Origin: a virus
Length of the DNA stretch: 21,634 bases
IMG/VR virus record: IMGVR_UViG_3300035183_000600
Span: 1-21,634 of that record
Reading direction: 5' to 3' (one strand)
Below the pieces are notes generated by a model. That model worked only from the letters and a program-made list of their open reading frames with translations, was not told the DNA's origin and made no database searches. Positions 2,406 to 21,307 of this stretch are shown piece after piece. The translations under genes were made by a program, and so were the position numbers. How positions within the stretch are numbered: the first letter of the stretch is position 1; each line of letters starts with the position of its first letter.

Positions 2406-2866
2406 GGCATGCCCGGCGCTGCGTAATCACACTTGAGCGTGACCATCTTCGTGCCGCTCTCGTAATCGTGCTCGATCGAGAGAGCAATTACAACAGGCAC
2501 TGCCTTGCCGTCGCCATGTAGGTGTAACCCTGCGAAGTCATACGTCCCGCGATAGAGATAGCAATAGCGATTGCGCAGCAGCCGACCGATCGCAACGATG
2601 ATGCCGACGTCGTCCGGAAATACAACTGGTGCAACCTTGATCTCGAGCGTGCGTCGCACACGCGGATTGATGACACGCATGCCGCCAACAGTCGTCGTGT
2701 CGTCGCCCTCAATCGTAGGTGCAAAGCCAGCTCCGAGTATGTCGAGCTTGAGCCAATTGCTATCATTCATCGGATCGCTTGTCCCAAGCGTGGCAAGCGA
2801 TACCTCGCCGTTGGAGTCGGGAGGATAGTACGTGTTGGTGGAGTACAAAGCGATCCGCCAGGTCAT
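2402..2866 (-). CDS. Small tail protein downstream of the tape measure (distal-tail-like)
   Basis: 154 aa. It is joined to the tape measure gene by a 4-bp overlap and to the hub gene by an ATGA overlap, so it sits inside a tightly packed tail operon. The sequence looks like a beta-sandwich: RRTLEIKVAPVVF, YLYRGTYDFAGLHLHGDG, VVIALSIEHDYESGTKMVTL. Its place between tape measure and hub matches the distal tail protein of siphophages, but it is shorter than most and I recognise no family signature. Function is inferred from position. Confidence 0.5.
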   Translation of the reverse strand: MTWRIALYSTNTYYPPDSNGEVSLATLGTSDPMNDSNWLKLDILGAGFAPTIEGDDTTTVGGMRVINPRVRRTLEIKVAPVVFPDDVGIIVAIGRLLRNRYCYLYRGTYDFAGLHLHGDGKAVPVVIALSIEHDYESGTKMVTLKCDYAAPGMP

Positions 2867-5800
2867 AGTCTGCGCAACGCATTGATGCGACGTTGCTCGA
2901 TACGATCGATGAGCGCACGATCGCTGACGTGCACGTCGAGCTCGACATGCGAGTATGTGTCACGCCGACCGCGCAGCGATCGCTCGACTGCTGCACGCAG
3001 TGTGCGCAACTCTCCAATTACGCGATCGTCGGTAGCACTGCCCTGCATCAGCCGCTCCGCATATCTGCGCTCGATCACTCGCTCGATGTAGCGCTCCACC
3101 GGCTGCCCTGTGCGATTGATCCACTCGAGCATGTCGCGGTTGGCGCGCGTTGCCTGCGCAGTAATGATTGATTCGCCCTTAGAAACACGCACCAAAATTG
3201 AATCGCTCGTCTCTGTTCCTGGTCCCTCTATGCCTACAACGCCAGTGGCAAAACCGGCAATCTTAGCTCGAGCAGCCTCGAGCAGCGCAGTCACGAGTGC
3301 AATTGCACCGGTCGCCGCCGGAATGCCAAGCGGTCCAAGTAGCGCTGCAAACGCAGCATAAATCTGCGGGATATATGTCATGATAGCCATCTCCGCTTGC
3401 TTTAGTAGCGTGTCGAGGATACCGCGCGTAAACGCTTCGCCCGCGCTCATGCCGGCTGCGAGCATGGCACCGAAGGCGCTCGATGCCATGCCGAGTGAGA
3501 CTTCCGCATATTGCGAAATCGCGCCGATATTGACCTTGACAAGGTCGGTGATTGATTCGATATTCTTCGGTAAGATTTCCTCCGCAATCTTCTGAGCTTT
3601 AGATGCCAGCGATTTGTACATCGCCTCGGCGCTCTTGATGACCGTCTCCATCATCCGTCGCTGTGCTTCGCTGATTTGCTGCGCCTTCATTGCTTCGGCG
3701 TCGGCAAGCGCGGCGAGGGTCTTGTTTGCGCTCGCGCGTCCCTTGATGTAGTCATCCATGATCGCTTTGCGGTCCTGTGCAGCGCTTTGCTGCTGCGCCT
3801 TCGCGCGATCGTTGAGCGTGTTGAGCGCTGCCGCGAAAGCGTCGCTCTGACCGATGAGCGTCTCGATGAGCTGACGCACTGAGTCTTGCAGCGCTGCGCG
3901 GTAGATGTTTTCGAGCTTGAGCGAATCGTTCAGGTACTTCTGTTGCAAATCGAGCTTCGCTTGCTCGAATTTCTGCCGCGCAGCGAGCTGTTTGGTGAGC
4001 GATGCGCCAGCGGCTGCCAGCTCCTGCTCGTAGGTTTGCTTTGCGATTTCGAGAGCGCGGTTGTATTCGGCTTCAGCGATCTCGCTCACATTGCCGCTTG
4101 CGACGAGATCGAGTCGCAACTTGAGCTGCTGATCGTCGAGCTGCTTTTGCAGCGAGAGGAGCTGCCCTTCGAGCTTGGCTTTGTCGAGCTCGTCGGTCGT
4201 CACCGCGATCTTCGCTGTGAGACGATCGCGCTCTGCTTCGAGCGCGGCGATAATTTTCTTGCGCAGCTCTGCTGCTGCTTCTGGGTCGGCTGTGATGTCG
4301 AGCCGTGCTTGCAAGTTTTGCAACGCCTGCTCTCGCAGTTGGCGCAGCCGCTCCTCCTGCTCCTCCGCTTGCTTGCGCAGCAGCCGCTCTGCTTGCAGGG
4401 CAGCGTTGCTGGCATCTTGCTGGATTGCGGCGATGTCCTTGCGCAGAGTAGCCGCGTCCTTACGACTATCCGGTATCTTGATCTTCGCCGCTGCTTCGGC
4501 TGCCTCCTTGTGTATGGCTGCAATCGCCTGCGCGTCGGCGATCTCTTTATCGGCAGTCTTTGCGCGACCTTCGCGCAAGCGTTGCAATTCTTCTTCCTGC
4601 TGACGTTGTTTTTCGCGTTCGAGTTTCTCATCGCGGATGGCTTTGATTTGTTCGATCTGCTTTTTGAGCATATCATCTTCGCTTTGTGCGCGTTTTTTCG
4701 CTGACTCTTTGATCGCTTCGAGCCGCGCGAAGAGTTGATCCGCTTGCTTGGCATCGAGCTGCCCTGCCTGCTGCGCAGCTTCGATCTGTGCTTTGATTGC
4801 CGAGACTTGCTTGTTGAGCATCTCCTCGCTCTTCGGACGATTGCGCGCGAGGTCTTGCAATGCACGATTGATGCGGTCGTATGCACTGACCTCCTCTTGC
4901 GCAGCGGCTGTCACTGCCTTCTGCTGCTGCTGTGCAGCCTGCGTGCGCGATGTCAACAGCCGCTGTTGCGCAGAGATGAGCTGCTCTGCACGATTGCTGA
5001 TTTCGAGCAGGTCTTCCGAACTGATCCCACGCTTGAGAGCCTCGACGATCTGGCGCGCTTGCTGCTCGTTGTATCCATACGTCTTGCGAATAAATGCAAC
5101 GAGATTGTCCGCCTCCAAGACCGCAATAGATCGAAGCTGCGCGGCGAGCTGGTCGAAGGTTTCCGGCGTTGCTCTCGAAAGGTCTTGCGCTGCGCGCCTC
5201 AAAAGATCAGCCATCATTTGCGGTGCATTGATGCCACCCATGCTAATGCTGAATTTCGACCAGAACGTGTCCACGACTTCGAGCATCTTTTCCTGCGCGG
5301 ACTGCGCTTGCAGCTCGAGCAGTCGCTGTTGATTTTGCATCGCTTGTTTGTTGAGCGAGTCCAGCCGAGAGTTGAGTTTGACGAGTTCGTCGCCGGTGCG
5401 TGCGCTTTGCTCCTTGAGCACGGCGAGCGTTTCGGCGTAGCTCGATGTCGAGCTGATCAGCGAGGGATAGGTCTTGGTGACTTCTGCGTGCAGCGTCTTG
5501 AGTCGCTCTTGCTCGGCTGCTGTGCGATTGCTTTTTTCGGCAAGCGCGATGTATTCGTCAGCGAGCGCCTTCTTTGCTTCTTTCGCTTTGATCGTCTCGC
5601 GTGTTTCGTCTATCTGCTTCTGGATGAGCTGCTGCGTTGCTTCGGCGTTCTTGATTTTGTCCTCGGTGGTCTCGATGAGTAACGGCTTCAGCGCGTTGAA
5701 AGCCGCCACAGCAGCCATGATGCCGGCGATCGCAAGACCGAGCGGATTGGTCGCCCATGCAGCCTTGAGCGCATTCGTCGCAACAGTGGCTGCGTTGGTA

Positions 5801-7095
5801 GCAGTGGTCTTTGCGATCATCGCCGTCGTCGCTGCGATGATCTGTTGCGGCAGCTTCGAGAGTCCCGCGAGCAGATCGCTGTTGAGCGCTTTGTACGCAG
5901 CGAACGCCGCCACTAATGAGAGCACCACCTCCTTGTGCTTGCCCACTTCGCCGACAATCGTCGCGACAGTCGAGACGACCGGCGTGACGATCTCCAACAC
6001 CTGTCCACCGATTTCGATCACGATCTGCTCGATCATCCGCTGCAAGTGTTCGAGCTGCGCTTCGGTGGTCTGCGTCATATCGCGCATAGCTGCATCGGTC
6101 GTGCCCGTAGCATTGCCGACATCGCGCACAGCGGCTGCGAAGCGCTCTGTATCGTTGGCGAGCGCGCTGAATGCAGCGCTCGCTTCGACGCTTGTAAACA
6201 CAGCGCCTGCTTGCAAGCCCAGCTCTTTCATCGATGCGGAGAGCTTGGCAACAGTCGTGGCGAGACCTTCTTGTGCGAGCGATTGCAGCGTCACTCCTGC
6301 GTGTTGCATGACCTGCGCCAGCTCTTCGCCGGGCTTGATCATCTGCACGAGCAGTTGATTGAGCTTGGTCGCTGCTTGTTGCGTGGGGATGCCTGATGCA
6401 GTCATCACCGCAAGCGCACCGCCGATCGAATCGAACGAGAGCTTGACGCTTGCAGCAGTCGGTATCACTTGCGACAGAGCACTCGACAGCTCCGGGATTG
6501 TCGTCTTGCCGAGATTGACAGTTGCGAATAGCTGATCGCTAAAGACTCGCGCTTTGTCGGCGCTCTCCCCGTATGCGTTGACGAGCGAGGAGAGAATGTT
6601 GACGGTGTTCTTGATCTTCTCCCCACCGCCGACAGCGAGCGATGATGCGGCTTGCATGAACGCTTCGATGCTCTGCTTGTTTGCTTCGATGCCCGCGCTC
6701 AAGGCATCATAAGTGGCGGCTTGCAACTCTGCTGCGCTGATCGGAACGCGCGTGCTCATCTGCACAGCGAGCTGCTCGAGCTCTGGTGCGATCTCGCGCG
6801 CAGCGCCGCCGAGCGTGCGAATCTGCGCAGTCGCACGTTCCAGCCCGAAGACTGCATCGCGCATTGCAGAGAATGACGTTTCGACTATGTTGAATGCAGC
6901 CATCCCCTTGACTATGTCGCCGACGCTCGACTTGAGAGAGCCGACCGACGTGGAGACCGCATCACTGCTTGCTTTGCCGGCTTTGCTGACGCGATCGACG
7001 AGCGTCTGCATCTCGCGCTCGACGTCGGCGATGCGCGCGAGTGCTTCGTCGGTTTTGAGCTTCAGTTCGAGCTGGATTGATTGCGTCGTCGCCAT
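2863..7095 (-). CDS. Tail tape measure protein (TP901-type core)
   Basis: 1410 aa, the longest gene, straight after the frameshifted chaperone genes as in lambda-like tails. An N-terminal helical segment is followed by a TP901-type core (about residues 75-320) with ATYDALSAGI, FATVNLGKTT and a GGALAVMTASGIPTQQAATKLNQL-like region. Hydrophobic segments follow at about 385-470. A long Gln/Glu/Ala/Lys-rich coiled coil spans about 470-1180. A second hydrophobic region precedes the GPGTETSDSILVRVSKGE motif common near tape-measure C-termini. By the lambda ratio of about 0.15 nm per residue, a tail near 210 nm is expected (inference). The gene carries an internal end-motif copy (3009-3020) and an operator-like site (3058-3069). 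Confidence 0.93.
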   Translation of the reverse strand: MATTQSIQLELKLKTDEALARIADVEREMQTLVDRVSKAGKASSDAVSTSVGSLKSSVGDIVKGMAAFNIVETSFSAMRDAVFGLERATAQIRTLGGAAREIAPELEQLAVQMSTRVPISAAELQAATYDALSAGIEANKQSIEAFMQAASSLAVGGGEKIKNTVNILSSLVNAYGESADKARVFSDQLFATVNLGKTTIPELSSALSQVIPTAASVKLSFDSIGGALAVMTASGIPTQQAATKLNQLLVQMIKPGEELAQVMQHAGVTLQSLAQEGLATTVAKLSASMKELGLQAGAVFTSVEASAAFSALANDTERFAAAVRDVGNATGTTDAAMRDMTQTTEAQLEHLQRMIEQIVIEIGGQVLEIVTPVVSTVATIVGEVGKHKEVVLSLVAAFAAYKALNSDLLAGLSKLPQQIIAATTAMIAKTTATNAATVATNALKAAWATNPLGLAIAGIMAAVAAFNALKPLLIETTEDKIKNAEATQQLIQKQIDETRETIKAKEAKKALADEYIALAEKSNRTAAEQERLKTLHAEVTKTYPSLISSTSSYAETLAVLKEQSARTGDELVKLNSRLDSLNKQAMQNQQRLLELQAQSAQEKMLEVVDTFWSKFSISMGGINAPQMMADLLRRAAQDLSRATPETFDQLAAQLRSIAVLEADNLVAFIRKTYGYNEQQARQIVEALKRGISSEDLLEISNRAEQLISAQQRLLTSRTQAAQQQQKAVTAAAQEEVSAYDRINRALQDLARNRPKSEEMLNKQVSAIKAQIEAAQQAGQLDAKQADQLFARLEAIKESAKKRAQSEDDMLKKQIEQIKAIRDEKLEREKQRQQEEELQRLREGRAKTADKEIADAQAIAAIHKEAAEAAAKIKIPDSRKDAATLRKDIAAIQQDASNAALQAERLLRKQAEEQEERLRQLREQALQNLQARLDITADPEAAAELRKKIIAALEAERDRLTAKIAVTTDELDKAKLEGQLLSLQKQLDDQQLKLRLDLVASGNVSEIAEAEYNRALEIAKQTYEQELAAAGASLTKQLAARQKFEQAKLDLQQKYLNDSLKLENIYRAALQDSVRQLIETLIGQSDAFAAALNTLNDRAKAQQQSAAQDRKAIMDDYIKGRASANKTLAALADAEAMKAQQISEAQRRMMETVIKSAEAMYKSLASKAQKIAEEILPKNIESITDLVKVNIGAISQYAEVSLGMASSAFGAMLAAGMSAGEAFTRGILDTLLKQAEMAIMTYIPQIYAAFAALLGPLGIPAATGAIALVTALLEAARAKIAGFATGVVGIEGPGTETSDSILVRVSKGESIITAQATRANRDMLEWINRTGQPVERYIERVIERRYAERLMQGSATDDRVIGELRTLRAAVERSLRGRRDTYSHVELDVHVSDRALIDRIEQRRINALRRL
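3009..3020 (+). repeat. Internal copy of the end-site motif in the tape measure gene
   Basis: ACTCTCCAATTA, a perfect 12-base match to the L2 and R2 core, in left-end orientation. It lies inside coding sequence about 3 kb from the left end. Whether the transposase binds here is unknown. Confidence 0.5.
3058..3069. promoter_or_regulatory. Operator-like site in the tape measure gene
   Basis: CGCATATCTGCG fits the YGCATATSTGCR consensus shared with the early and late control regions, 38 bp beyond the internal end-motif. It is in coding sequence and no promoter is evident, so it may be a decoy or chance site. Confidence 0.3.
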
Positions 7096-12397: not shown

Positions 12398-12894
12398 TGA
12401 CGTTCGACCGCGCAGTCGAAATCATACTCGCGCTCGAAGGCGGGCGCAGCAATCATCCGCAGGACAGCGGTGGACTGACTGTTTTCGGTATCACCGCCGA
12501 GACTGCGCGGCGACATGGTTACAACGTCGAGCACCTCACACGCGAGCAGGCGATCGCGATCTACAAGATCGATTACTGGCAAGCGATGCGGTGCGACGAT
12601 CTGCCGTCGCGATGGCGCTTGCCTGCGTTCGACGCAGCAGTGCAACATGGCGTGCGCCGCGCGACGACGATGCTGCAGCAAGCCATCAAGACGAAAGCCG
12701 ATGGCATCATCGGACCGAAGACGCTGGAAGCGGCTCGCAATGCGGGTTTGGTGGCGATCGCACGCTTCTTCTCCTACCGCATAACGCTCTATTTCGACCA
12801 CCCAAAGCGGGCGTATTTCCTCGAAGGCTGGATGCGTCGGCTCGTCACAGTTGCGACGATGATGCACTATTACGAGGACGCTGTCGATGCATAG
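12394..12894 (+). CDS. Endolysin, GH108-type lysozyme
   Basis: 166 aa cytoplasmic muramidase with no signal peptide, so it needs a holin. The N-terminus has the GH108 signature: catalytic Glu15 in LALEGG, then DSGGLTVFGITAETAR and IYKIDYWQAMRCDDLP. The C-terminal half has FDAAVQHGVRRATTMLQQA and the peptidoglycan-binding motif DGIIGPKTLEAA. Mu gp22 is in the same family. Length is typical. The gene is wedged between the probable small and the large terminase genes, overlapping both (4 bp and 8 bp). Confidence 0.92.
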   Translation: MMTFDRAVEIILALEGGRSNHPQDSGGLTVFGITAETARRHGYNVEHLTREQAIAIYKIDYWQAMRCDDLPSRWRLPAFDAAVQHGVRRATTMLQQAIKTKADGIIGPKTLEAARNAGLVAIARFFSYRITLYFDHPKRAYFLEGWMRRLVTVATMMHYYEDAVDA

Positions 12895-14395
12895 CACGCT
12901 CGACATAGCGATGCAGCGCTTCGAGCAGCGTATGTCGTTCGCGCTGCCAGGACCGCCATTCGACGAGCGCGAGCGCTCGACTCGCAGCGAGCGATTGGAG
13001 CGTGCTGCTCGTGATTACTGGTATTTCGATCGTACCTACTTCCCCGCGGCTCTCTACCAGGACGGCTATAGCAAGCCTGCACGCTTCCATCGCGACCTTG
13101 TGCGCATTGCACAGCAACCGGGCATGCATATCATCATGGCGCCGCGCAAGCATGGCAAGACGGCAACGCTGAAGAAATACATGGTATGGGCATTGCTGCA
13201 CCGCGTGCAGTTTGCGGCGATCTACGCTGCGACGATCACGACGGCAAGCAACATCCTCGACGACATCGCTACGCTCATCCGCTACAACAGCCGCATTACT
13301 GCTGACTTCCAGCCGGAGATTGTCGAATGCAACAGCGAGCAGATGACGTTCGTTGCTGGCGGCAAGATGCGCCGCGTCATCGTCGCAAGCGAGGGTCGAT
13401 CGCTGCGCGGAGCGACGATGCAATTCGGACGCCCTGAACTGCTCCTTGTTGACGACATCGAAACGCGTGCATGCTCGTTATCGAGCGAAGCTGTACAATC
13501 GCGATACTACGCGCTCAAAGAAGCCTACGCATCGCTCTCTGCCGGAGGCACTGCGATCGTGCTCGGCAACAATTTCGACGAGCGCTGCTTACTCAATCAG
13601 CTTAAGTGTGCAGTGCTGCTTCCGGAAGGCTGGACGTTGCACGAATACAATGCGTGGAGCGGCTCTGGTCCGCTCTGGCGCTCGCGCTACCCAGCGTCGA
13701 GCGAAGCAGAGTTGCGCGCGATGCTCAAGGTGAGCGACGAGTCCGAGTGGCTCGCCGACTACCAGCAAGAGCCGGCACCACCGGAAGGAACAATCTTCCC
13801 GCGCGAGCATCTGGTCACCTACAGCGGCAAGCTGCCGAGCGATGCGCGTGGCGTGGTCTATTGCGATCCCAACCTTGCCAAGCGTGGGCGTGGCGACACG
13901 ACCGCAATGGTAGCGCTGCTCTACTCGCCGAGCACCGATCGCTACTACATCCCGGACGTACGATGCCGATCGTACTCGCAAGCATCGGAGCTGCTCGACG
14001 ATCTGCTCGCTTTGAGGCGCTACTCTCCAATTATCGGCTTTGATGGCAACGTTGCGCAAGAGTCGTTTTGGACACAACTAGTCCGCGACTGGTGTCGCAT
14101 TCGCGGCGAGTCGTATCCGGCGATCATCTATTGCAGGTACAAGGTTGACGAGCTCGCGAAAAATGCAAGTGTGCTCTGGTGCGACGAACGAATCATGATC
14201 AACGAGCAACTGCTCGCAAACGTAGAGGGGAAGCGCTTTCTGACGCAGGTACTCGCTTTTGCGGGCAAGCAATCGGGACGCCACGACGATGCCGCCGATG
14301 CGCTCATCTGCGCAATCGAGCTGCTACATGAGCGCAGACCTGCATCGCGCACACGTTACGCCACGAGTATCATCACCGACTACTACGCGCTATGA
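12887..14395 (+). CDS. terL: Terminase large subunit (ATPase and nuclease)
   Basis: 502 aa DNA packaging motor. The ATPase half has a Walker A-type loop at 85-92 (APRKHGKT), a motif around 111-120 and Walker B at 185-192 (LLLVDDIE). The RNase H-like nuclease half has acidic residues at D327 (VVYCDPNLAKRGRGDTT), D386 (IIGFDGN) and D467/D468 (RHDDAADAL), in the usual order. A Mu relative would package headful-wise from an adjacent chromosomal end. It starts within the last 8 bp of the endolysin gene and overlaps the portal start by 4 bp. It contains an internal end-motif copy at 14021-14033. Confidence 0.95.
   Translation: MHSTLDIAMQRFEQRMSFALPGPPFDERERSTRSERLERAARDYWYFDRTYFPAALYQDGYSKPARFHRDLVRIAQQPGMHIIMAPRKHGKTATLKKYMVWALLHRVQFAAIYAATITTASNILDDIATLIRYNSRITADFQPEIVECNSEQMTFVAGGKMRRVIVASEGRSLRGATMQFGRPELLLVDDIETRACSLSSEAVQSRYYALKEAYASLSAGGTAIVLGNNFDERCLLNQLKCAVLLPEGWTLHEYNAWSGSGPLWRSRYPASSEAELRAMLKVSDESEWLADYQQEPAPPEGTIFPREHLVTYSGKLPSDARGVVYCDPNLAKRGRGDTTAMVALLYSPSTDRYYIPDVRCRSYSQASELLDDLLALRRYSPIIGFDGNVAQESFWTQLVRDWCRIRGESYPAIIYCRYKVDELAKNASVLWCDERIMINEQLLANVEGKRFLTQVLAFAGKQSGRHDDAADALICAIELLHERRPASRTRYATSIITDYYAL
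14021..14033 (+). repeat. Internal copy of the end-site motif in terL
   Basis: TACTCTCCAATTA is identical over 13 bases to L2 and to the reverse complement of R2. It lies inside the nuclease-coding part, where it encodes YSPI. Confidence 0.5.
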
Positions 14396-15507
14396 TGTAC
14401 CCACAACTAAGCCAGTACAGACGCGCAGTCCAAGACGCGATCACCACCGATGATGACAAGCGCACGGTTGCGCAACTCTACGCATATCTGCGACTGTTCG
14501 AGCTGTTCTCGCCGCACATACGCGGACTAATCAATGTGCGCTCTACCGGTCTTGTCGCGCTCGACTGGATCATCAGCAATGAGGATGGCACCGTTGACGA
14601 GCGCACACAGACCGCACGCATCCTGCTCGGCAAGGCGATCGATACGATTCTTCGTCATGCATATCGGGTCGATCTCTACGGCGTGCTCGGTTTTGCGATC
14701 ATGTGGCAAAAGACTGCGATCGGCTGGAAGCCGCAACTGTCCTTGCTTCCAGCGGGGCGGCTCGAAGTGATGAGCGACGGAACGATCGCAATGCTGCCAT
14801 CGCGCTTGCGTGTACAGACAGACGACTACACCAAGATTGCCAGCGCCGACGCAGCAGCGACCAACGGCGGGATGATGATCTCGATCGGCTACCTCGAAAT
14901 CATGCGAGACGACATCTTGCGCGAATGGGCGAACTACAATCGCAAGCTCAAAGGATTGATACACGGCATCGATCGCGGCGCAAGCGAGCAAGAGCGGATG
15001 GCAGCAGAGCAGGCATTGCAACAAGCAATCCTGCACAACTACATGATCACGAGCGACCTCATTGACATCAAGCTCGATCAGCTCGCATCGAGCCAAGGCG
15101 CGCAGTCGTTCAGCGGGTTCCTCGATTACGTCAACCGCATGATCTCGATTGCGATCTGCGGTCAGGCGAACGTTAGCGATCTGCCGCAGCGAAGCGGATC
15201 GCGTGCTGCGCTCGTTGTGCAGCGCAGTATTACGCGCGACATCATCATGACCGACTCCGTCTATGCAGCGGACATGATTGGTCAGCTCATCGCGCATTAC
15301 TCGCGTCTCAACTTCGGTGGCGATCGTGGGCTGACGTTCGCATTCGACTACTCATTCGACGACGACGCCGAGACCGCATCGGTGGTGATTCGCAACGCGC
15401 TTCAAAGCGGCATCCCGCTTCGTCGCGATGAGGTCTATCGGCGGCTCGGTTACACGCAGCCGCAGGAAGGAGACGACGTCATCACTGCACTAACGCCGAC
15501 GTTCTGA
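14392..15507 (+). CDS. Portal protein, Mu gp29 (DUF935) type
   Basis: 371 aa dodecameric portal. Features of the DUF935 portal family are present: an N-terminal helical region (IRGLINVRSTGLVALDWIISNED), where Mu-type portals have 'R...V....W.I'. After it come a helix AIDTILRHAYRVDLYGVLGFAIMWQ, a strand region WKPQLSLLPAGRLEV, and a long helical crown-like part (residues about 180-290) ending in an acidic strand segment AFDYSFDDDAE. It is a little shorter than typical DUF935 portals (450-500 aa). It lies directly after terL with a 4-bp overlap. An operator-like word occurs at 14481-14492. Confidence 0.85.
   Translation: MMYPQLSQYRRAVQDAITTDDDKRTVAQLYAYLRLFELFSPHIRGLINVRSTGLVALDWIISNEDGTVDERTQTARILLGKAIDTILRHAYRVDLYGVLGFAIMWQKTAIGWKPQLSLLPAGRLEVMSDGTIAMLPSRLRVQTDDYTKIASADAAATNGGMMISIGYLEIMRDDILREWANYNRKLKGLIHGIDRGASEQERMAAEQALQQAILHNYMITSDLIDIKLDQLASSQGAQSFSGFLDYVNRMISIAICGQANVSDLPQRSGSRAALVVQRSITRDIIMTDSVYAADMIGQLIAHYSRLNFGGDRGLTFAFDYSFDDDAETASVVIRNALQSGIPLRRDEVYRRLGYTQPQEGDDVITALTPTF
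14481..14492. promoter_or_regulatory. Operator-like site in the portal gene
   Basis: CGCATATCTGCG is the same 12-mer as at 3058-3069 and fits the shared operator consensus. It is in coding sequence without a visible promoter. Confidence 0.3.
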
Positions 15508-16046
15508 TGCGCACGCTGCTCGCCAAATTCGCTCCAATAGCGCTCGGCATGATCACCGAGCAGATCGAGCAAGGCATTGACATCGAGGGCAAGCGCTATC
15601 GCTATTCGGCGAAGCCGTTCTCCGCGCCGGCAGGGTCGCTGCTCAAATTCGCACGACTTGCACTCGCACGCAATCGCGAGTTACATTACTTTCGCGCAGC
15701 AAGCGGTGGACTGTGGGTCGTCGTCACTGGCGGATATGCGTCGTATCGCAGAGCTGCACGGCGGCTCGATACGGGGGACTATCTCACGTTCAGCGGCAAG
15801 CTAATGAGCTCGATGGTCTATCAGTACGACGATCAGCGCATCACGATCAAGTTTGCAACGCCCAAACAAGCAGCGATCGCCTACTACCTCAACATCAGCG
15901 GCGCCGGCAAGGGACGGCGCTTGTGGCGATTTCTGGGACTGACCAAGCGCAACCTCGAACGGCTCGCAGATATGATGAGTGCGGAGTTGACGCGAGGAGA
16001 TTTTGCTGGCACGATCGCCGAGCGACTGCGCAAATCTGCGCGTTAG
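15507..16046 (+). CDS. Virion morphogenesis protein, Mu gpG / tail completion S-like
   Basis: 179 aa, last gene of the rightward late operon. IDIEGKRYRYSAKPFS near the N-terminus is the 'D.dGk.y..l....' strand of gpG-like virion morphogenesis proteins. After the 'GKLMSSMVYQYDDQRITIKFATPKQAAIAYYLN' middle, the RRLWRFLGLTKRNLERLADMM motif corresponds to the family's '(R)PfLGls..d...i' ending. Members help join heads and tails. It starts on the portal stop (TGATG). Its TAG and the repressor TAA overlap face to face in TTAG (16043-16046), so the two transcripts converge with no terminator between them. Confidence 0.75.
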   Translation: MRTLLAKFAPIALGMITEQIEQGIDIEGKRYRYSAKPFSAPAGSLLKFARLALARNRELHYFRAASGGLWVVVTGGYASYRRAARRLDTGDYLTFSGKLMSSMVYQYDDQRITIKFATPKQAAIAYYLNISGAGKGRRLWRFLGLTKRNLERLADMMSAELTRGDFAGTIAERLRKSAR

Positions 16047-16642
16047 AGCTGGCGATAGATGCGAGCGATCACGATGCCGATGATCTCGATCTCAGCCGCG
16101 CGAACGAGCATTGACGCGGTTTGCGGGTTGTCGGCGTCGAGCTTGATCGTCTTGCGATCGGCTGCGCGCAATCGGCGGAGCATGATCCATCCATCGTGGC
16201 GGACAACGTAGATCGCGCCGTCGCTGAGCTGCTCGCCAGCGTGGTATCGCCTGACCAAGACGAGATCGCCGCTCTCGATCGTCGGCGCCATCGAATCCCC
16301 CGAAACCCGCATCACAACTGCGTTTCGCGGCGATATGCTATCGAGCAACGCGCGGGGAATAGGCATGAGCGATTCAACGTGATCGTCGCCAGCGATTGAC
16401 TTGCCAGCACCAACCGGCTGCAACAGAAGAGGGACATGCACAACGTCGGTACTCTCCAATTGCAACGCCCGCCTCGCCGCTGCAATCCACGTTGCATCCG
16501 CATACCCGCGCGCACGCCATCGCGAAATCGTCTTGCGAGAGACATGCAACTCTGGCGGAAGTCGCTCGATGAGATCAACATCGGTTGTAACGCCAGCCGC
16601 TCGGAGCAATTCATCGAGCGCTGGCAACGGTCGCTTGCGCAT
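16043..16642 (-). CDS. LexA/CI-type phage repressor with altered S24 catalytic dyad
   Basis: 199 aa. An N-terminal DNA-binding part (about 1-62) has VSRKTISRWRARGY as recognition region. The C-terminal S24 domain has the cleavage-site-like GAGKS (Ala79-Gly80) and the nucleophile Ser117 in RVSGDSMAPTIESGDLVLV. It also has the strand DGWIMLRRLR, where LexA-type proteins have VKRL: the catalytic Lys is Arg156 (CGC, 16177-16175). Autocleavage should therefore be lost or much reduced. It is transcribed away from the transposase gene. Operator-like sites lie over its start codon (16638-16649) and at 16682-16693, suggesting autoregulation. The Mu repressor c belongs to a different family. Confidence 0.9.
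   Translation of the reverse strand: MRKRPLPALDELLRAAGVTTDVDLIERLPPELHVSRKTISRWRARGYADATWIAAARRALQLESTDVVHVPLLLQPVGAGKSIAGDDHVESLMPIPRALLDSISPRNAVVMRVSGDSMAPTIESGDLVLVRRYHAGEQLSDGAIYVVRHDGWIMLRRLRAADRKTIKLDADNPQTASMLVRAAEIEIIGIVIARIYRQL
16450..16461 (+). repeat. Internal copy of the end-site motif in the repressor gene
   Basis: TACTCTCCAATT matches L2 over 12 bases; the thirteenth base differs. It is in left-end orientation and about 290 bp from the early promoter. Confidence 0.42.
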
Positions 16643-16649
16643 ATGTGCA
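16638..16649. promoter_or_regulatory. Operator-like site at the repressor start codon
   Basis: CGCATATGTGCA, inside the near-palindrome TGCGCATATGTGCA (16636-16649), covers the repressor ATG at 16642-16640. It shares GCATATGTGCA with the site at 20825-20836. Confidence 0.55.
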
Positions 16650-16681
16650 TAGCCGAGGATTGCACGCGCAGCAAAGTTACG

Positions 16682-16693
16682 TGCAGATATGCA
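16682..16693. promoter_or_regulatory. Operator in the early control region
   Basis: TGCAGATATGCA, extended by G and C to GTGCA-GATA-TGCAC. It is identical to the core of the third late-region repeat. It lies just downstream of the probable repressor start of transcription and about 48 bp upstream of the early -35 box. Binding by the repressor is inferred. Confidence 0.65.
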
Positions 16694-16708
16694 CGGGTGA
16701 CATCCGCA

Positions 16709-16731
16709 ATTCTACCGACAAAAAATTTTTT
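16709..16731 (-). promoter_or_regulatory. Possible repressor promoter with A6T6 tract
   Basis: Minus strand TAGAAT (16714-16709) matches five of six -10 bases. No good -35 precedes it; instead there is a perfect A6T6 block (16720-16731), which often bends DNA or acts as an upstream element. Start of transcription would be near 16702. Confidence 0.4.
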
Positions 16732-16740
16732 GCGGGACTC

Positions 16741-16787
16741 TTGACACAAAAAGGGACATTGTGTATATTCGCGCCCAGTTGTGTCCC
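16741..16787 (+). promoter_or_regulatory. Early promoter with TTGTGT/ACACAA sites
   Basis: TTGACA (16741-16746), exactly 17 bases, then TATATT (16764-16769): a near-consensus sigma-70 promoter reading into the transposase. Over it lie ACACAA (16744-16749) and TTGTGT at 16759-16764 and 16779-16784 (20 bp apart), plus GGGACA (16753-16758) paired with TGTCCC (16782-16787). These look like a second operator type, distinct from the YGCATATSTGCR sites. Confidence 0.8.
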
Positions 16788-16802
16788 ATAAAGTCCTCGG
16801 CA

Positions 16803-18431
16803 ATGGACATGCGCGTACATACACTCCAGCTATCCGACCCCAAAGGGGAGGAACGCCCACTGCTGCAACAAATGCAGAGAGCCGAGGCTCTGCAACCATC
16901 GGTCCCGCGCCCAACCGCACTTGCATTACATACCTCCGGGAACATACACAACCCCAATGCACGCTCGTCACGTAGTGACCGCGGGAGGGCGCGGGGTGCC
17001 GATGCCGCAATCATCGAGCGGGTCGTTCCGCTCGTGCTCGCAGAATTTCTCGCGGACCCTGCAGCATGCAATCCGCGCACAATGAAGCCGCGCGGTCTGA
17101 GATCGGCGATCCTGCGCGTAGCACAATCGCTGGCACAGAGCGGCATCGTATTCGACGTCGATCGTGTCTATCGCTACATCATCGGTCATGGTCGCCGATC
17201 GATCTTTTACATGCAGGATTGGCAGTCGCAATGGCGGCTGCGCTGGCGCAAGCACGATGCCGCGATCGATACAGCACACGTCGCCTATTCATTCTGGGAG
17301 ATCGCCGAAGCGGACTTCGGCGCTGGTCATGGCAGTGGCGGTTATCGGTGGATTTTCCTCGACGACCGTGTTAGCAAAATCTATCTCGATAACAACAATG
17401 ATCTCGCCAAGCAAACGATGATCATTGGTTGGGACGTGCTAACAGGGGAGCTGCTCCACATGCACATTTGCGACTCGCTCCGAACGGAGGATTACATCAT
17501 CGCGATCATGGATATCGTTTTGCGATACGGTCTCGATCGCACGACGTGGTTCCTCGAGAACGCCTCCGTTGCAGCAGCGGAGCGGCTTTCGCGGCTGATC
17601 GAGCATCTTTACACGGAGGAGGAGCGAGACTACTTCAATCGCTACGAGCATCGAGCATTGTTCGGTGGGCAGGGTTGCATCGTGCGCAATGTGCCCGCGA
17701 TACCGATCGGCATCGGCAAGGCGATCGGCGAGCGATTCAACGCGCAGCTCAAGTGGCTCGATGCGTTGATCGCTCCGCAAGCATACATGGGTAGCAACCG
17801 CGACGAAGCAGTGCAACTGCGCCGATCGCACGAGCCGGTGATCAGCGATGCACTTACAATCGCAGCGAGCGCGTACATCGAGCAGCTCTGGTCGGCATGG
17901 CAGTCACAGCTCGATACAATCGTGCCTTCGATGCGACGGTGGGGAGAGCTCAAGAGGATCGAGCCTACACGACGCAACATCATCGAGTATTACCGACCGC
18001 AACAGACACAGCGACCGCTCGACGAGCGAATTGCAATGCTGCTCTACTACTCGCTGCCCAAGCCGCCGAAACGCTGCTCGCTCACCTCTCGCGGCTGTCT
18101 GCGCCTATTCCGCAAGAATAGGCACATCAATCTCATCGCTCCTGCTTTATACGCCGATCATTTGACACGTCCGCGTTGTCTATCCGCAATCGAGCTGCCC
18201 TGGCAGCCGGAGACGTATGCGATCTACTACCACGAGGGCGATCGTGTCGAACTGCTCTGCATTGCGCGCGACGCCACTGCTCGCAGCGTTGCGGCTGCGG
18301 TCGATCTCCGCACTGCTGTGCGCGCACTCCGCGAGCAAGATCAGCGATCGCTCCAACGCAACGATGACGAAATCGAAACGGACGTCATCATCCCGATCGA
18401 TGACGTCGAACGTATCATCAACCAATTATAG
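16803..18431 (+). CDS. Mu-type DDE transposase with a D-E-E triad
   Basis: 542 aa from the ATG at 16803. A GTG at 16761 is rejected because it lies upstream of the predicted start of transcription, within the promoter. The N-terminal 110 residues are basic and probably bind end sites. The catalytic core has FLDD (D187/D188), then FLENAS with E252 where Mu has LDN, then KAIGERF with E310. Spacings of about 65 and 58 match MuA (D269, D336, E392). The stretch after the last Glu, LDALIAPQAYMGSNRDEA, matches the MuA family region after its catalytic Glu. A beta-barrel-like region follows (AIYYHEGDRVELLCIARD). It lacks an obvious MuB partner. AGGAGG for the next gene overlaps its stop. Confidence 0.92.
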   Translation: MDMRVHTLQLSDPKGEERPLLQQMQRAEALQPSVPRPTALALHTSGNIHNPNARSSRSDRGRARGADAAIIERVVPLVLAEFLADPAACNPRTMKPRGLRSAILRVAQSLAQSGIVFDVDRVYRYIIGHGRRSIFYMQDWQSQWRLRWRKHDAAIDTAHVAYSFWEIAEADFGAGHGSGGYRWIFLDDRVSKIYLDNNNDLAKQTMIIGWDVLTGELLHMHICDSLRTEDYIIAIMDIVLRYGLDRTTWFLENASVAAAERLSRLIEHLYTEEERDYFNRYEHRALFGGQGCIVRNVPAIPIGIGKAIGERFNAQLKWLDALIAPQAYMGSNRDEAVQLRRSHEPVISDALTIAASAYIEQLWSAWQSQLDTIVPSMRRWGELKRIEPTRRNIIEYYRPQQTQRPLDERIAMLLYYSLPKPPKRCSLTSRGCLRLFRKNRHINLIAPALYADHLTRPRCLSAIELPWQPETYAIYYHEGDRVELLCIARDATARSVAAAVDLRTAVRALREQDQRSLQRNDDEIETDVIIPIDDVERIINQL

Positions 18432-18439
18432 GAGGACCT

Positions 18440-18802
18440 ATGCGAACCGCACCACAGCAGCAGTCGCAGGAGCTGATCGTCAAGCTCCCGACGAACGATA
18501 TCGAGCGCCAGCTCGACGCCAAAACGGCGAAGTACTACCGAGACCTGGCGCAGAAGATCAGCATCGCCGCAAGCACACTTGCGAGTGTGCAGGCTGACAT
18601 CCGCAAGCTCCAAAGAGAGCTCGCGACGCTGAAACCCGCACAGCAGCTTGCTTCCAGGCGAGCACAGGAAAAGCAACTCAAGAAGGCACTCGCCGAGCTC
18701 TCGATGAAGCTCGCGGGCATTATCGAGGCGACCACCGGTGAGACGCCATCGCGCCTGCTCGATGCCGCGACCGGTCGCAACAACGGGAGGATCGAGCGAT
18801 GA
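18440..18802 (+). CDS. Unknown early coiled-coil protein
   Basis: 120 aa, directly after the transposase, with AGGAGG 5 bases before its ATG. Residues about 30-95 form an uninterrupted charged helix (KYYRDLAQKISIAASTLASV, RKLQRELATL, RRAQEKQLKKALAELSMKL). There is no Walker motif, so it is not a MuB ATPase. Position in the slot where Mu has B suggests a small transposase partner or DNA-binding accessory, but this is only context. It overlaps the next gene by ATGA. Confidence 0.72.
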   Translation: MRTAPQQQSQELIVKLPTNDIERQLDAKTAKYYRDLAQKISIAASTLASVQADIRKLQRELATLKPAQQLASRRAQEKQLKKALAELSMKLAGIIEATTGETPSRLLDAATGRNNGRIER

Positions 18803-19341
18803 AGGAACGCGAAGACTCGCTCCGACGCGATCTCAACCGAAAAATATGGTTGGAGCTGAGGAAGTACGTTGACTGGGGCGACATCGAAGAAAATATCCGC
18901 GTGGCTCGCGCTGCCGCATGCAAAGCAGTAACGGAAGTCACTCGCCGGCACAAAGCGACGAGCGACTACAAGCAGCTCACGCTTGCAGAGCTGCGGGCAG
19001 TGCTGCACTACATCCGCACCGGTCAGCTGCCGAGCAAGATTGCAAGCGCGCGGCAGCTTGGCATGCTCAAGGCGCTCGAGATCCGCTGCGCCACATGGTA
19101 CGAAACCGACGGTCAATCAACCGACATCCGTCCGCGATCGCAGCAGGAGATCTACAACCTCTTCGACCGCTACATCAATCCGCTTGTGATGAAGTGGCTC
19201 GAGGAAGGTGGCTTCCGACCACGTCGCTACGTTGATTACTCCTCGCTTCGCAGCGATGAGTGCAGCTATCTCATTCAAAGATTTCGTGCAATGTTGAACA
19301 ATCTGATCATCCGCCATGAAGGTGAACACCAGCTCAATTGA
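18799..19341 (+). CDS. Unknown early protein, possibly gp16/DUF1018-like
   Basis: 180 aa, helical. SD GGAGG lies 8 bases before the ATG, which overlaps the previous stop. The middle (LTLAELRAVLHYIRTGQLPSK) and the later part (QLGMLKALEIRCATWY, LFDRYINPLVMKWLEEGGF, LIQRFRAMLNNLI) recall the layout of Mu gp16-type early proteins, with 'eL..vL', 'Q...i..L.', and a W-containing helix before the C-terminus. The match is weak and I would not transfer a function. Co-transcription with transposase and Gam suggests a role in replication or control. Confidence 0.6.
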   Translation: MKEREDSLRRDLNRKIWLELRKYVDWGDIEENIRVARAAACKAVTEVTRRHKATSDYKQLTLAELRAVLHYIRTGQLPSKIASARQLGMLKALEIRCATWYETDGQSTDIRPRSQQEIYNLFDRYINPLVMKWLEEGGFRPRRYVDYSSLRSDECSYLIQRFRAMLNNLIIRHEGEHQLN

Positions 19342-19543
19342 TGACGTGCGCAAGATTGCACTTATACGCGGCATGCTCGCTCTCCGCGAAGACGCACAAC
19401 GCGACCGCGATCTCTTGGCAGAGAGCATTCGCCAGCAACGGCTGCAACGCAAGCGCGCTCTGCTGGCAACCGCATTACTGCTTGCTTTGACGGCAGTAGC
19501 ATGTTTCATTTTCCTCTGGAGCCGCAATGCGCAAATCAACTAA
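19316..19543 (+). CDS. Small single-helix membrane protein
   Basis: 75 aa. A charged, Arg-rich cytoplasmic-like part (RGMLALREDAQRDRDLLAESI, QRLQRKR) is followed by one transmembrane helix near the C-terminus (ALLATALLLALTAVACFIFLW) and a six-residue end, so it is probably tail-anchored. It overlaps the preceding gene by 26 bp and the gam gene by 17 bp. Small membrane proteins in prophage early operons sometimes act in superinfection exclusion; here function is unknown. Start chosen as the only ATG compatible with length; no strong SD. Confidence 0.6.
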   Translation: MKVNTSSIDDVRKIALIRGMLALREDAQRDRDLLAESIRQQRLQRKRALLATALLLALTAVACFIFLWSRNAQIN

Positions 19544-20024
19544 GGTGACTGCGCTCGATCCTGCTGAGCACCTATATGAATACGCGCAACTCGATGCTGA
19601 AAAACGTAAGATCGAGGCAAAGATGGATGCAGAGATCGCGCAAATTCGTGAGAAGTACGCGGACCGACTACTCAAGCTCGATCGCCGTCTCGAAGAACTT
19701 TTCGACGGGATGCTGATCTGGGCGGAGGCAAATCAGCATCTTTTCGAGGGCAAGCGATCGCTCGACTATCCGCATGGGGTGGTTGGTTACCGGCTCGGTA
19801 ATCCCGCTGTGCGCTTACAACGCGGCATGACGACCGACAAGGTGATCGCACTCGCACGCGAGATCGCACCGGACCTTGTAGCGATCAAAGAGTCGCTCAA
19901 CAAGGACCTCATCATCGATCGCCGCGACGATCTTGCACGCGAGGGCATCCTCGATCGGCTCAAAATTCAGATCGTGCAAGAGGACCGCTTCTATGTTCAA
20001 CCCAAGACGGAGGAAACCACATGA
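19527..20024 (+). CDS. gam: Gam-like DNA-end-binding host nuclease inhibitor
   Basis: 165 aa. Mu Gam, a Ku-like dimer, coats DNA ends and blocks exonucleases. Family features: N-terminal helix pair with KKR-type charges (LDAEKRKIEAKMDAEIAQIREKY), the strand pair RSLDYPHGVVGYRLGNPAVRL, and a helical C-terminal part (ALAREIAPDLVAIKESLNKDLI) ending in the strand QEDRFYVQP. The 'RSL....G..G.R.G.P' motif is diagnostic. Length is close to Mu Gam (174 aa). SD TGGAG precedes the ATG. It overlaps the zinc-ribbon gene by ATGA. Confidence 0.93.
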   Translation: MRKSTKVTALDPAEHLYEYAQLDAEKRKIEAKMDAEIAQIREKYADRLLKLDRRLEELFDGMLIWAEANQHLFEGKRSLDYPHGVVGYRLGNPAVRLQRGMTTDKVIALAREIAPDLVAIKESLNKDLIIDRRDDLAREGILDRLKIQIVQEDRFYVQPKTEETT

Positions 20025-20305
20025 AGTGTCCCTTCTGCGGAACAGTCAATACGCTGCGCATCTTTCGCACCTACCGCAACCGCAAGTACTACAAAGGCTG
20101 GTTGCGCGCAGATTGCGACACGCGATTGACGCAATGCAGCTCTTGCAAGAGGATTGTGATCACCGTTACCACAGTGGATGATGGAGCAACTCGTCAATTT
20201 CTTGCGAGCGGCGGAGGAGCTGATGTTGCAGCTCTTGCGTCAGCGAGCGAGCAGTCAGGAGATCGAGCGCCAACTCCGCCGTTTGGCGAGGAGGATGGGG
20301 ATTGA
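20021..20305 (+). CDS. Small zinc-ribbon protein
   Basis: 94 aa. A CPFC (residues 3-6) and a CSSC (39-42) form a four-cysteine zinc-ribbon around a basic middle (RTYRNRKYYKGW). The pattern occurs in small phage DNA- or RNA-binding regulators (Com-like). In Mu, Com is a zinc-binding translational activator of mom; no mom gene is visible here. SD GGAGG precedes the ATG. The C-terminal 40 residues are low in structure and are encoded by a 128-bp overlap with the next gene in another frame, so the true C-terminus may simply be unconstrained. Confidence 0.75.
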   Translation: MKCPFCGTVNTLRIFRTYRNRKYYKGWLRADCDTRLTQCSSCKRIVITVTTVDDGATRQFLASGGGADVAALASASEQSGDRAPTPPFGEEDGD

Positions 20306-20804
20306 TCCGCGCACGCTTGCGGGCGCAACTCTGCAAGAGGCGATAGCGCGTGCGCGTGTGCGGATGATGACGATCCCTTCGCAGCTTTACACGGCAGCCG
20401 TCCGCGAGATCACGCGGACGGCTGCGGCTATTGATCGTGGCGTCATCGAGATGGTCACACGTGCATTACGCAGAGGTACCAGCGAGCAGCGTTTGCGCGA
20501 GCGATTGCGTCGAGAGTTCGATGTGCAGCGGCAGCACGTTTACACGATCGGCAACACGATCGAGGCAAGCGTCGGCAGGGCTGCACTGATTGAGCAGTCG
20601 CATCGAGATCGTGTACAGCGCTTTCGCTATGTCGGTCCTCGCGCGCGCGCGCGTGCATTTTGTTCGCAACTTCTCGACCAAGCGGCTGCGGGCAAGACGT
20701 GGACGATCGAGGAGATTGAGCGTCTCGACAATGGGCAGGGATTGCCGGTGTTGTACTTTTGTGGCGGTTACAATTGTCGTCACAGATGGATGCCAGTGCA
20801 ATGA
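20178..20804 (+). CDS. gpF/SPP1 gp7-like minor head protein
   Basis: 208 aa. After N-terminal helices, the C-terminal 70 residues carry the head-morphogenesis signature: HRDRVQRFRYVGPRARARAF, FCSQLLDQAAAGKTWTIEEI and LDNGQGLPVLYFCGGYNCRHRW. In Mu-like phages this domain protein (gpF) is encoded beside the portal; here it is in the early operon near the right end, about 4.7 kb from the portal gene. An ATG at 20223 with GGAGGAG just before it is an alternative start that would shorten the overlap with the zinc-ribbon gene. Full gpF is longer, so this is a compact version. Confidence 0.85.
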   Translation: MMEQLVNFLRAAEELMLQLLRQRASSQEIERQLRRLARRMGIDPRTLAGATLQEAIARARVRMMTIPSQLYTAAVREITRTAAAIDRGVIEMVTRALRRGTSEQRLRERLRREFDVQRQHVYTIGNTIEASVGRAALIEQSHRDRVQRFRYVGPRARARAFCSQLLDQAAAGKTWTIEEIERLDNGQGLPVLYFCGGYNCRHRWMPVQ

Positions 20805-21307
20805 GAGCGATCATGATCATCTGCTGCATATGTGCAGCATTGCATGCGCGCGAGCGTGCATGCGATTTTCATCCGGACTCAATCGGCTATCTTATCGATG
20901 GATGTTTAGGCAAGCGACTCATCGAGCGAATGCTGCGCGACAGCGTATATCGCGCAGCATTGCAAGAGCGGTACGGTTGCACGATTGATGTTTTCAGTGA
21001 TACGACCAATCCGATTCTTTCGCCGTCGGTGAGGATTACATATTTCACACAACAGTGGACGTTCACGCGGAAGAGCGATTCGGATTGGGCAATCGGTTAC
21101 GAGAGCAGATTCGATAGTAACAAGGCGGCGCAGTTTGTGTTTGATCAGTTGCTTCCACGTGCACGTAAGCGTGGGCGATTTGTCGCGGTCAAGGATTCTG
21201 TTTACATCTTTTCTCAAGCCGATGGGACATACATATTTTTTGGTGCTCGCCGCAACATAATGCTGGTCGCACATGTGTCGGGTGCAGTCTATTCGCGTTT
21301 GCGGTAA
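20801..21307 (+). CDS. Exported protein of unknown function (possible conversion gene)
   Basis: 168 aa from the ATG at 20801, which overlaps the minor-head stop as ATGA; an upstream start (20759) would lie inside that gene. A short signal peptide is visible (MRAIMIICCICAALHA), with cleavage probable after about residue 16. The mature part has several Cys near the start (ACDFHPDSIGYLIDGC, YGCTIDVF), then mixed alpha/beta sequence (FTQQWTFTRK, RFVAVKDSVYIFSQADGTYIFFG). I recognise no family. It is the last gene before the right end, where transposable phages often carry cargo. An operator-like site lies inside its signal-peptide codons. Confidence 0.75.
   Translation: MRAIMIICCICAALHARERACDFHPDSIGYLIDGCLGKRLIERMLRDSVYRAALQERYGCTIDVFSDTTNPILSPSVRITYFTQQWTFTRKSDSDWAIGYESRFDSNKAAQFVFDQLLPRARKRGRFVAVKDSVYIFSQADGTYIFFGARRNIMLVAHVSGAVYSRLR
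20825..20836. promoter_or_regulatory. Operator-like palindrome at the start of the exported-protein gene
   Basis: TGCATATGTGCA, in the 18-base near-palindrome TGCTGCATATGTGCAGCA (20822-20839). It fits the phage operator consensus and lies 24 bp inside the gene, so the gene may be regulated separately from the early operon. Confidence 0.5.

Follow-up and report, generated by a model that had tools for sequence, protein, structure and literature searches.

Can a Mu-type transposase work when the second aspartate of its catalytic triad is replaced by glutamate? The question is raised by a gene in a 21,634-base viral contig (IMGVR_UViG_3300035183_000600, record class "linear"; referred to below as the window), in which a sequence-only reading had recognised a MuA-type transposase with a D-E-E triad. 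Apart from the nearest relative, described below, all the other Mu-type transposases in the alignment keep the second Asp, and Glu at the corresponding position of piggyBac nearly abolishes excision (in two assays, D346E gives 0 and about 9e-5 where the wild type gives 1.4e-2 and 3e-3; PMC2533014). A lineage in which Glu is fixed offers a testable case of whether second-shell changes, here a Gly before the third catalytic residue and an Asp after the first, permit a longer ligand, and allows one to ask whether the preferred metal has changed or the balance has shifted between nicking and joining. If true, it would be a worked example of how DDE recombinases can exchange a metal ligand that hardly ever varies, and a caution that automatic rules labelling non-DDE transposases "dead" can be wrong.

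The transposase gene and its setting

In the window, which comes from a Mu-like tailed phage, genes were recognised for the terminase, Mu portal, major head protein, tape measure, S24 repressor and Mu Gam. Sister phages were found by a terminase search, and three of them encode relatives of the window transposase: G001 (IMGVR_UViG_3300009566_000010), G002 (IMGVR_UViG_3300005393_000019) and G004 (IMGVR_UViG_3300047557_001972), an independent 28.7 kb phage contig. The features of the window that bear on the question are as follows.

12887..14395, + strand, terminase large subunit, the query for finding related phages (phrog_38, E 4.8e-55)
14392..15507, + strand, Mu-type portal protein (PF06074, E 1.7e-29)
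16043..16642, − strand, S24-type (LexA/CI-like) repressor, divergent from the transposase (Pfam PF00717, E 1e-22; PHROG repressor)
16741..16769, + strand, sigma-70-like promoter before the transposase gene, TTGACA-17-TATATT (11/12 matches)
16803..18431, + strand, Mu-type transposase, D-E-E variant (Foldseek best match Mu transpososome 4fcy; PF02914 DDE_2 below cut-off)
18799..19341, + strand, early gene of unknown function with counterparts next to the G001 and G002 transposases
19527..20024, + strand, Mu Gam-like DNA-end protection protein (PF07352, E 7.9e-25)

The transposase thus occupies a MuA-like position, as the divergent neighbour of the S24 repressor and upstream of Gam, in a phage that also carries a Mu portal and a terminase. 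Its reading frame (16761–18431, + strand) encodes 556 amino acids from a GTG, and the open frame extends back to 16701. The GTG at 16761 is a mechanical start, from which D201, E266 and E324 are counted throughout; the ATG at 16803 is probably the likelier start, since the promoter overlaps the GTG, and the D187, E252 and E310 of the sequence-only reading are the same three residues numbered from that ATG. Shuffles are expected to give 0.3 promoter sites of this type. The promoter lies between the arms of a 22-nt inverted repeat (16638–16659 and 16794–16815, 82% complementary and 134 nt apart), of which the first lies where the repressor gene starts and the second at the ATG of the transposase (16803). 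Together, the repeat and the promoter between repressor and transposase look like an operator arrangement.

The contig, which is shorter than those of related phages, is probably incomplete. The sequence-only reading had described the element as intact and inserted; neither flanking host DNA nor an end of the phage was recognised in the 21.6 kb. No MuB-like ATPase was recognised in the window, and the only Walker-A open reading frame of at least 180 amino acids is the terminase; this is true also of G004 throughout and of G001 over nearly its whole length.

A very divergent MuA/TnsB-type transposase

The window protein is a very divergent transposase of the MuA/TnsB type. Searches with hmmscan returned no significant match to Pfam, including the curated family models PF02914, PF00665 and PF09299, to PHROG or to NCBIfam, and a PDB sequence search returned no meaningful match. 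In a one-genome search, PF02914 (Mu transposase DDE_2) aligned with residues 197–277 at an E-value of 7.1e-4, with a score of 12.9 bits that falls below the curated cut-off of 23. In PDB comparisons the link to MuA is through fold only.

AlphaFold models of the window and G004 proteins are both of low confidence (mean pLDDT 49, with a core of about 60–78, and 55, respectively), and the window model is adequate for topology, not for side-chain geometry. Both models have strands 1–3, a helix, strand 4, helices and a long helix in the RNase H order, and these low-confidence models predict an RNase H-like core with a MuA-like C-terminal barrel. For the low-confidence window model the best Foldseek match is the Mu transpososome 4fcy (E 7.6e-9), and VIA-align superposes it on 1bco with a Z score of 11.0 over 241 residues, pairing residues 185–505 with MuA 258–560. 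The G004 model gives a Z score of 12.5 against the MuA core. TnsB of Tn7 and of type V-K CAST is alike in overall fold, with Z about 11 for 8rdu, 8aa5 and 7svw; TnsB is the DDE enzyme of a different element type.

Glutamate at the second catalytic position

When 15 Mu-type transposases are aligned with L-INS-i, among them those of Mu, D3112, SuMu, BalMu-1, RcWaterboi, VW-6B, G001, G002 and G004, residues D201, E266 and E324 of the window protein fall in the columns of MuA D269, D336 and E392. Together with the fold matches, this alignment bears out the assignment to the MuA type made in the sequence-only reading, and also its identification of Glu at the second position. The residues concerned, all located by alignment, are listed here.

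17361..17363, + strand, D201, first catalytic Asp (MuA D269 column; model strand 197–209)
17364..17366, + strand, D202, extra Asp after the first catalytic Asp, present only in the window and G004 among the 15
17556..17558, + strand, E266 (GAG), second catalytic position (MuA D336 column; predicted end of strand 4, 262–266)
17727..17729, + strand, G323, Gly before the third catalytic residue, where the other 13 proteins of the panel have Ile or Val
17730..17732, + strand, E324, third catalytic Glu (MuA E392 column; predicted helix 319–337)

Asp fills the second catalytic column in 13 of the 15 proteins, the window and G004 being the two with Glu, and the canonical relatives align across this position without a gap. 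The spacing from D201 to E266 to E324 is 65 and 58 residues, as the sequence-only reading had it; the MuA triad of D269, D336 and E392 is spaced by 67 and 56 (PMC3362531). In the window model D201 lies in strand 197–209, E266 ends strand 262–266 and E324 lies in helix 319–337, and D215, E282 and E340 of the G004 model are placed in the same way. This is the arrangement of MuA (PF02914 DDE_2/PF09299 Mu-transpos_C; 1bco, 4fcy), with the first Asp on strand 1, an acid ending strand 4 and the third Glu in the next helix. The window phage further resembles Mu in the early-gene position of the transposase opposite a repressor and in the presence of Gam. In contrast to MuA, the window protein has Glu at the second position, an Asp after the first catalytic residue and a Gly before the third, and it comes without a Pfam match by hmmscan and without a recognised MuB-like ATPase. 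Because Glu stands where the D-D-E triad has its second Asp, the protein is to be classed as a variant, outside the canonical Mu-type (MuA) DDE transposases.

A two-member D-E-E subclade

The nearest relative, the G004 transposase, is 33% identical to the window protein and reads FFMENS at the second catalytic position. Its Glu codon is GAG, as in the window. The Gly before the third catalytic residue and the Asp after the first occur only in these two among the 15 proteins, so that G004 shares the D-E-E triad together with the neighbouring changes. Both proteins also keep the first catalytic Asp, the third catalytic Glu, the Asn after the second position and the Lys-Ala before the third; as judged by sequence comparison, an active site in decay would look different. 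The nearest canonical relatives are G001 and G002, whose transposases are 17–21% identical to the window protein (a range that depends on the alignment). These phages are like the window in their terminase (about 50% identical), portal, head protein and the gene downstream of the transposase (18799 in the window), and likewise have no recognised MuB, whereas their transposases carry the canonical motifs V-D-[AG]-T, [LM]-D-N and K-A-x-I-E.

A six-protein tree groups the window with G004 (93/97) and G001 with G002 (100/99). The sequence-only reading had asked whether Glu is fixed in the clade, and in the aligned homologues it is fixed in the only two members of the subclade sampled. Since G001, G002 and all outgroups have D-D-E, the Glu is most simply taken as derived, with a single origin in the common ancestor of the lineages leading to the window and to G004, a subclade of two members only. 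Single-protein and profile scans of viral and genome contigs, and tblastn of phages and plasmids, produced no further D-E-E members. The open-access literature gave no relevant match to a described DEE triad, which does not in itself establish that none has been described.

The two proteins differ at their N termini, where a helix-turn-helix is predicted in G004 (residues 17–56) and weakly matched in G001 and G002; none is recognisable in the window transposase (window 16761–16980). The G004 early region also encodes a ParB-like protein (L015:4860-5879; phrog_4715, E 3e-13).

Is the variant enzyme active?

We read this gene as a Mu-like phage transposase that is most likely working and in which Glu266 replaces the second catalytic Asp. 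Glu266 would hold the two catalytic metal ions together with D201 and E324. The loss of the bulky Ile or Val beside E324, where G323 now stands, may make room for the longer Glu side chain, and D202 may act as an accessory acid. MuA binds the phage ends, nicks them and joins them to target DNA in replicative transposition; by analogy, the window enzyme would do the same. We regard the Glu as a natural active-site variant, as opposed to a mutation or sequencing error, because a distant phage, G004, has the same Glu and the same neighbouring changes. A near-consensus promoter opposite the S24 repressor and a gene position upstream of Gam count in favour of a working enzyme. Counted against it are the small number of known D-E-E members, just two, the piggyBac effect, the low confidence of the models and the lack of a recognisable N-terminal helix-turn-helix in the window protein. 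A wider claim, that these proteins represent a natural, active D-E-E branch of Mu transposases with compensating changes, Ile/Val to Gly by the third residue and an extra Asp by the first, is only slightly favoured over its negation.

The main concern for a working enzyme is that the transposase might be impaired or dead, retained for example only for end binding or regulation, in phages that use another recombinase or a host function. The sequence-only reading had stated that Asp-to-Glu changes at this position usually abolish activity. That holds for the engineered piggyBac enzyme (PMC2533014), but a survey of the RNase H-like superfamily states that Asp, Glu and His each occur relatively often at the catalytic position on strand 4 (PMC3985635), and the natural Glu in the window and G004 is accompanied by two neighbouring substitutions. 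The missing helix-turn-helix would also fit an impaired protein, and the window contig is short enough that another recombinase gene could lie outside it. However, the three acids and the residues around them are kept in both D-E-E lineages at an identity of 33%, the scanned open reading frames of the window and of the 28.7 kb G004 contig include no other recognised integrase or recombinase, and the layout of the early operon is normal. We therefore consider loss of function improbable, although the Glu may have had a single origin, in an enzyme that lost one reaction step.

A rebuilt active site, in which D202, D185 or D259 is the true metal ligand and E266 is secondary, is a little less probable again. 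D185 (before strand 1), D202 and D259 (before strand 4) are identical in the two D-E-E proteins, an Asp directly after the first catalytic residue is found in none of the 13 other transposases, and an acid beside the first Asp is known in RNase H2 and some transposases (PMC3985635). Against this, E266 still occupies precisely the strand-4 position and is still followed by Asn, and in a regular strand D202 and D201 should face opposite ways. D259 was rejected as the real second ligand, since the model places it at the opposite, wrong end of strand 4. Far less probable than either is an artefact of alignment or sequencing, with the position non-catalytic or the codon wrong. The protein is divergent enough to escape a Pfam or PHROG match by hmmscan, which counts in favour of an artefact; yet the canonical relatives align without gaps, MuA D336 falls in the same column, the fold models of the window and G004 agree, and none of the homologues aligned shows the second position to be non-catalytic, an outcome that the sequence-only reading had thought could overturn it. 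Sequencing or assembly error was rejected, as the independent G004 contig has the same change, also as GAG.

Module exchange and gene order in related phages

A further phage of the same terminase family, G005, carries a transposase with a Mu-transpos_C domain and a MuB-like AAA ATPase (L011:13535-16325). Their counterpart in the window and G004 is the divergent transposase, with no recognised MuB, and the difference is an exchange of transposition modules. Gene order varies as well. In the window, the early module, from the transposase to a MuF-like gene, runs in the same direction as the terminase and portal (12887–21307), and the portal-side gene at 15507–16046 abuts the repressor at its end. 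In G001 and G002 (L002, L003) the early module is inverted relative to the terminase and portal, and one module has thus flipped within the family. G004 differs from the window in having its early and late genes on one strand. Elsewhere in the window, the tape measure gene (2863–7095, − strand) encodes a protein whose C-terminal residues 1280–1333 match an endolysin PHROG (phrog_971, E 9e-10), which suggests a cell-wall hydrolase domain within the tape measure protein.
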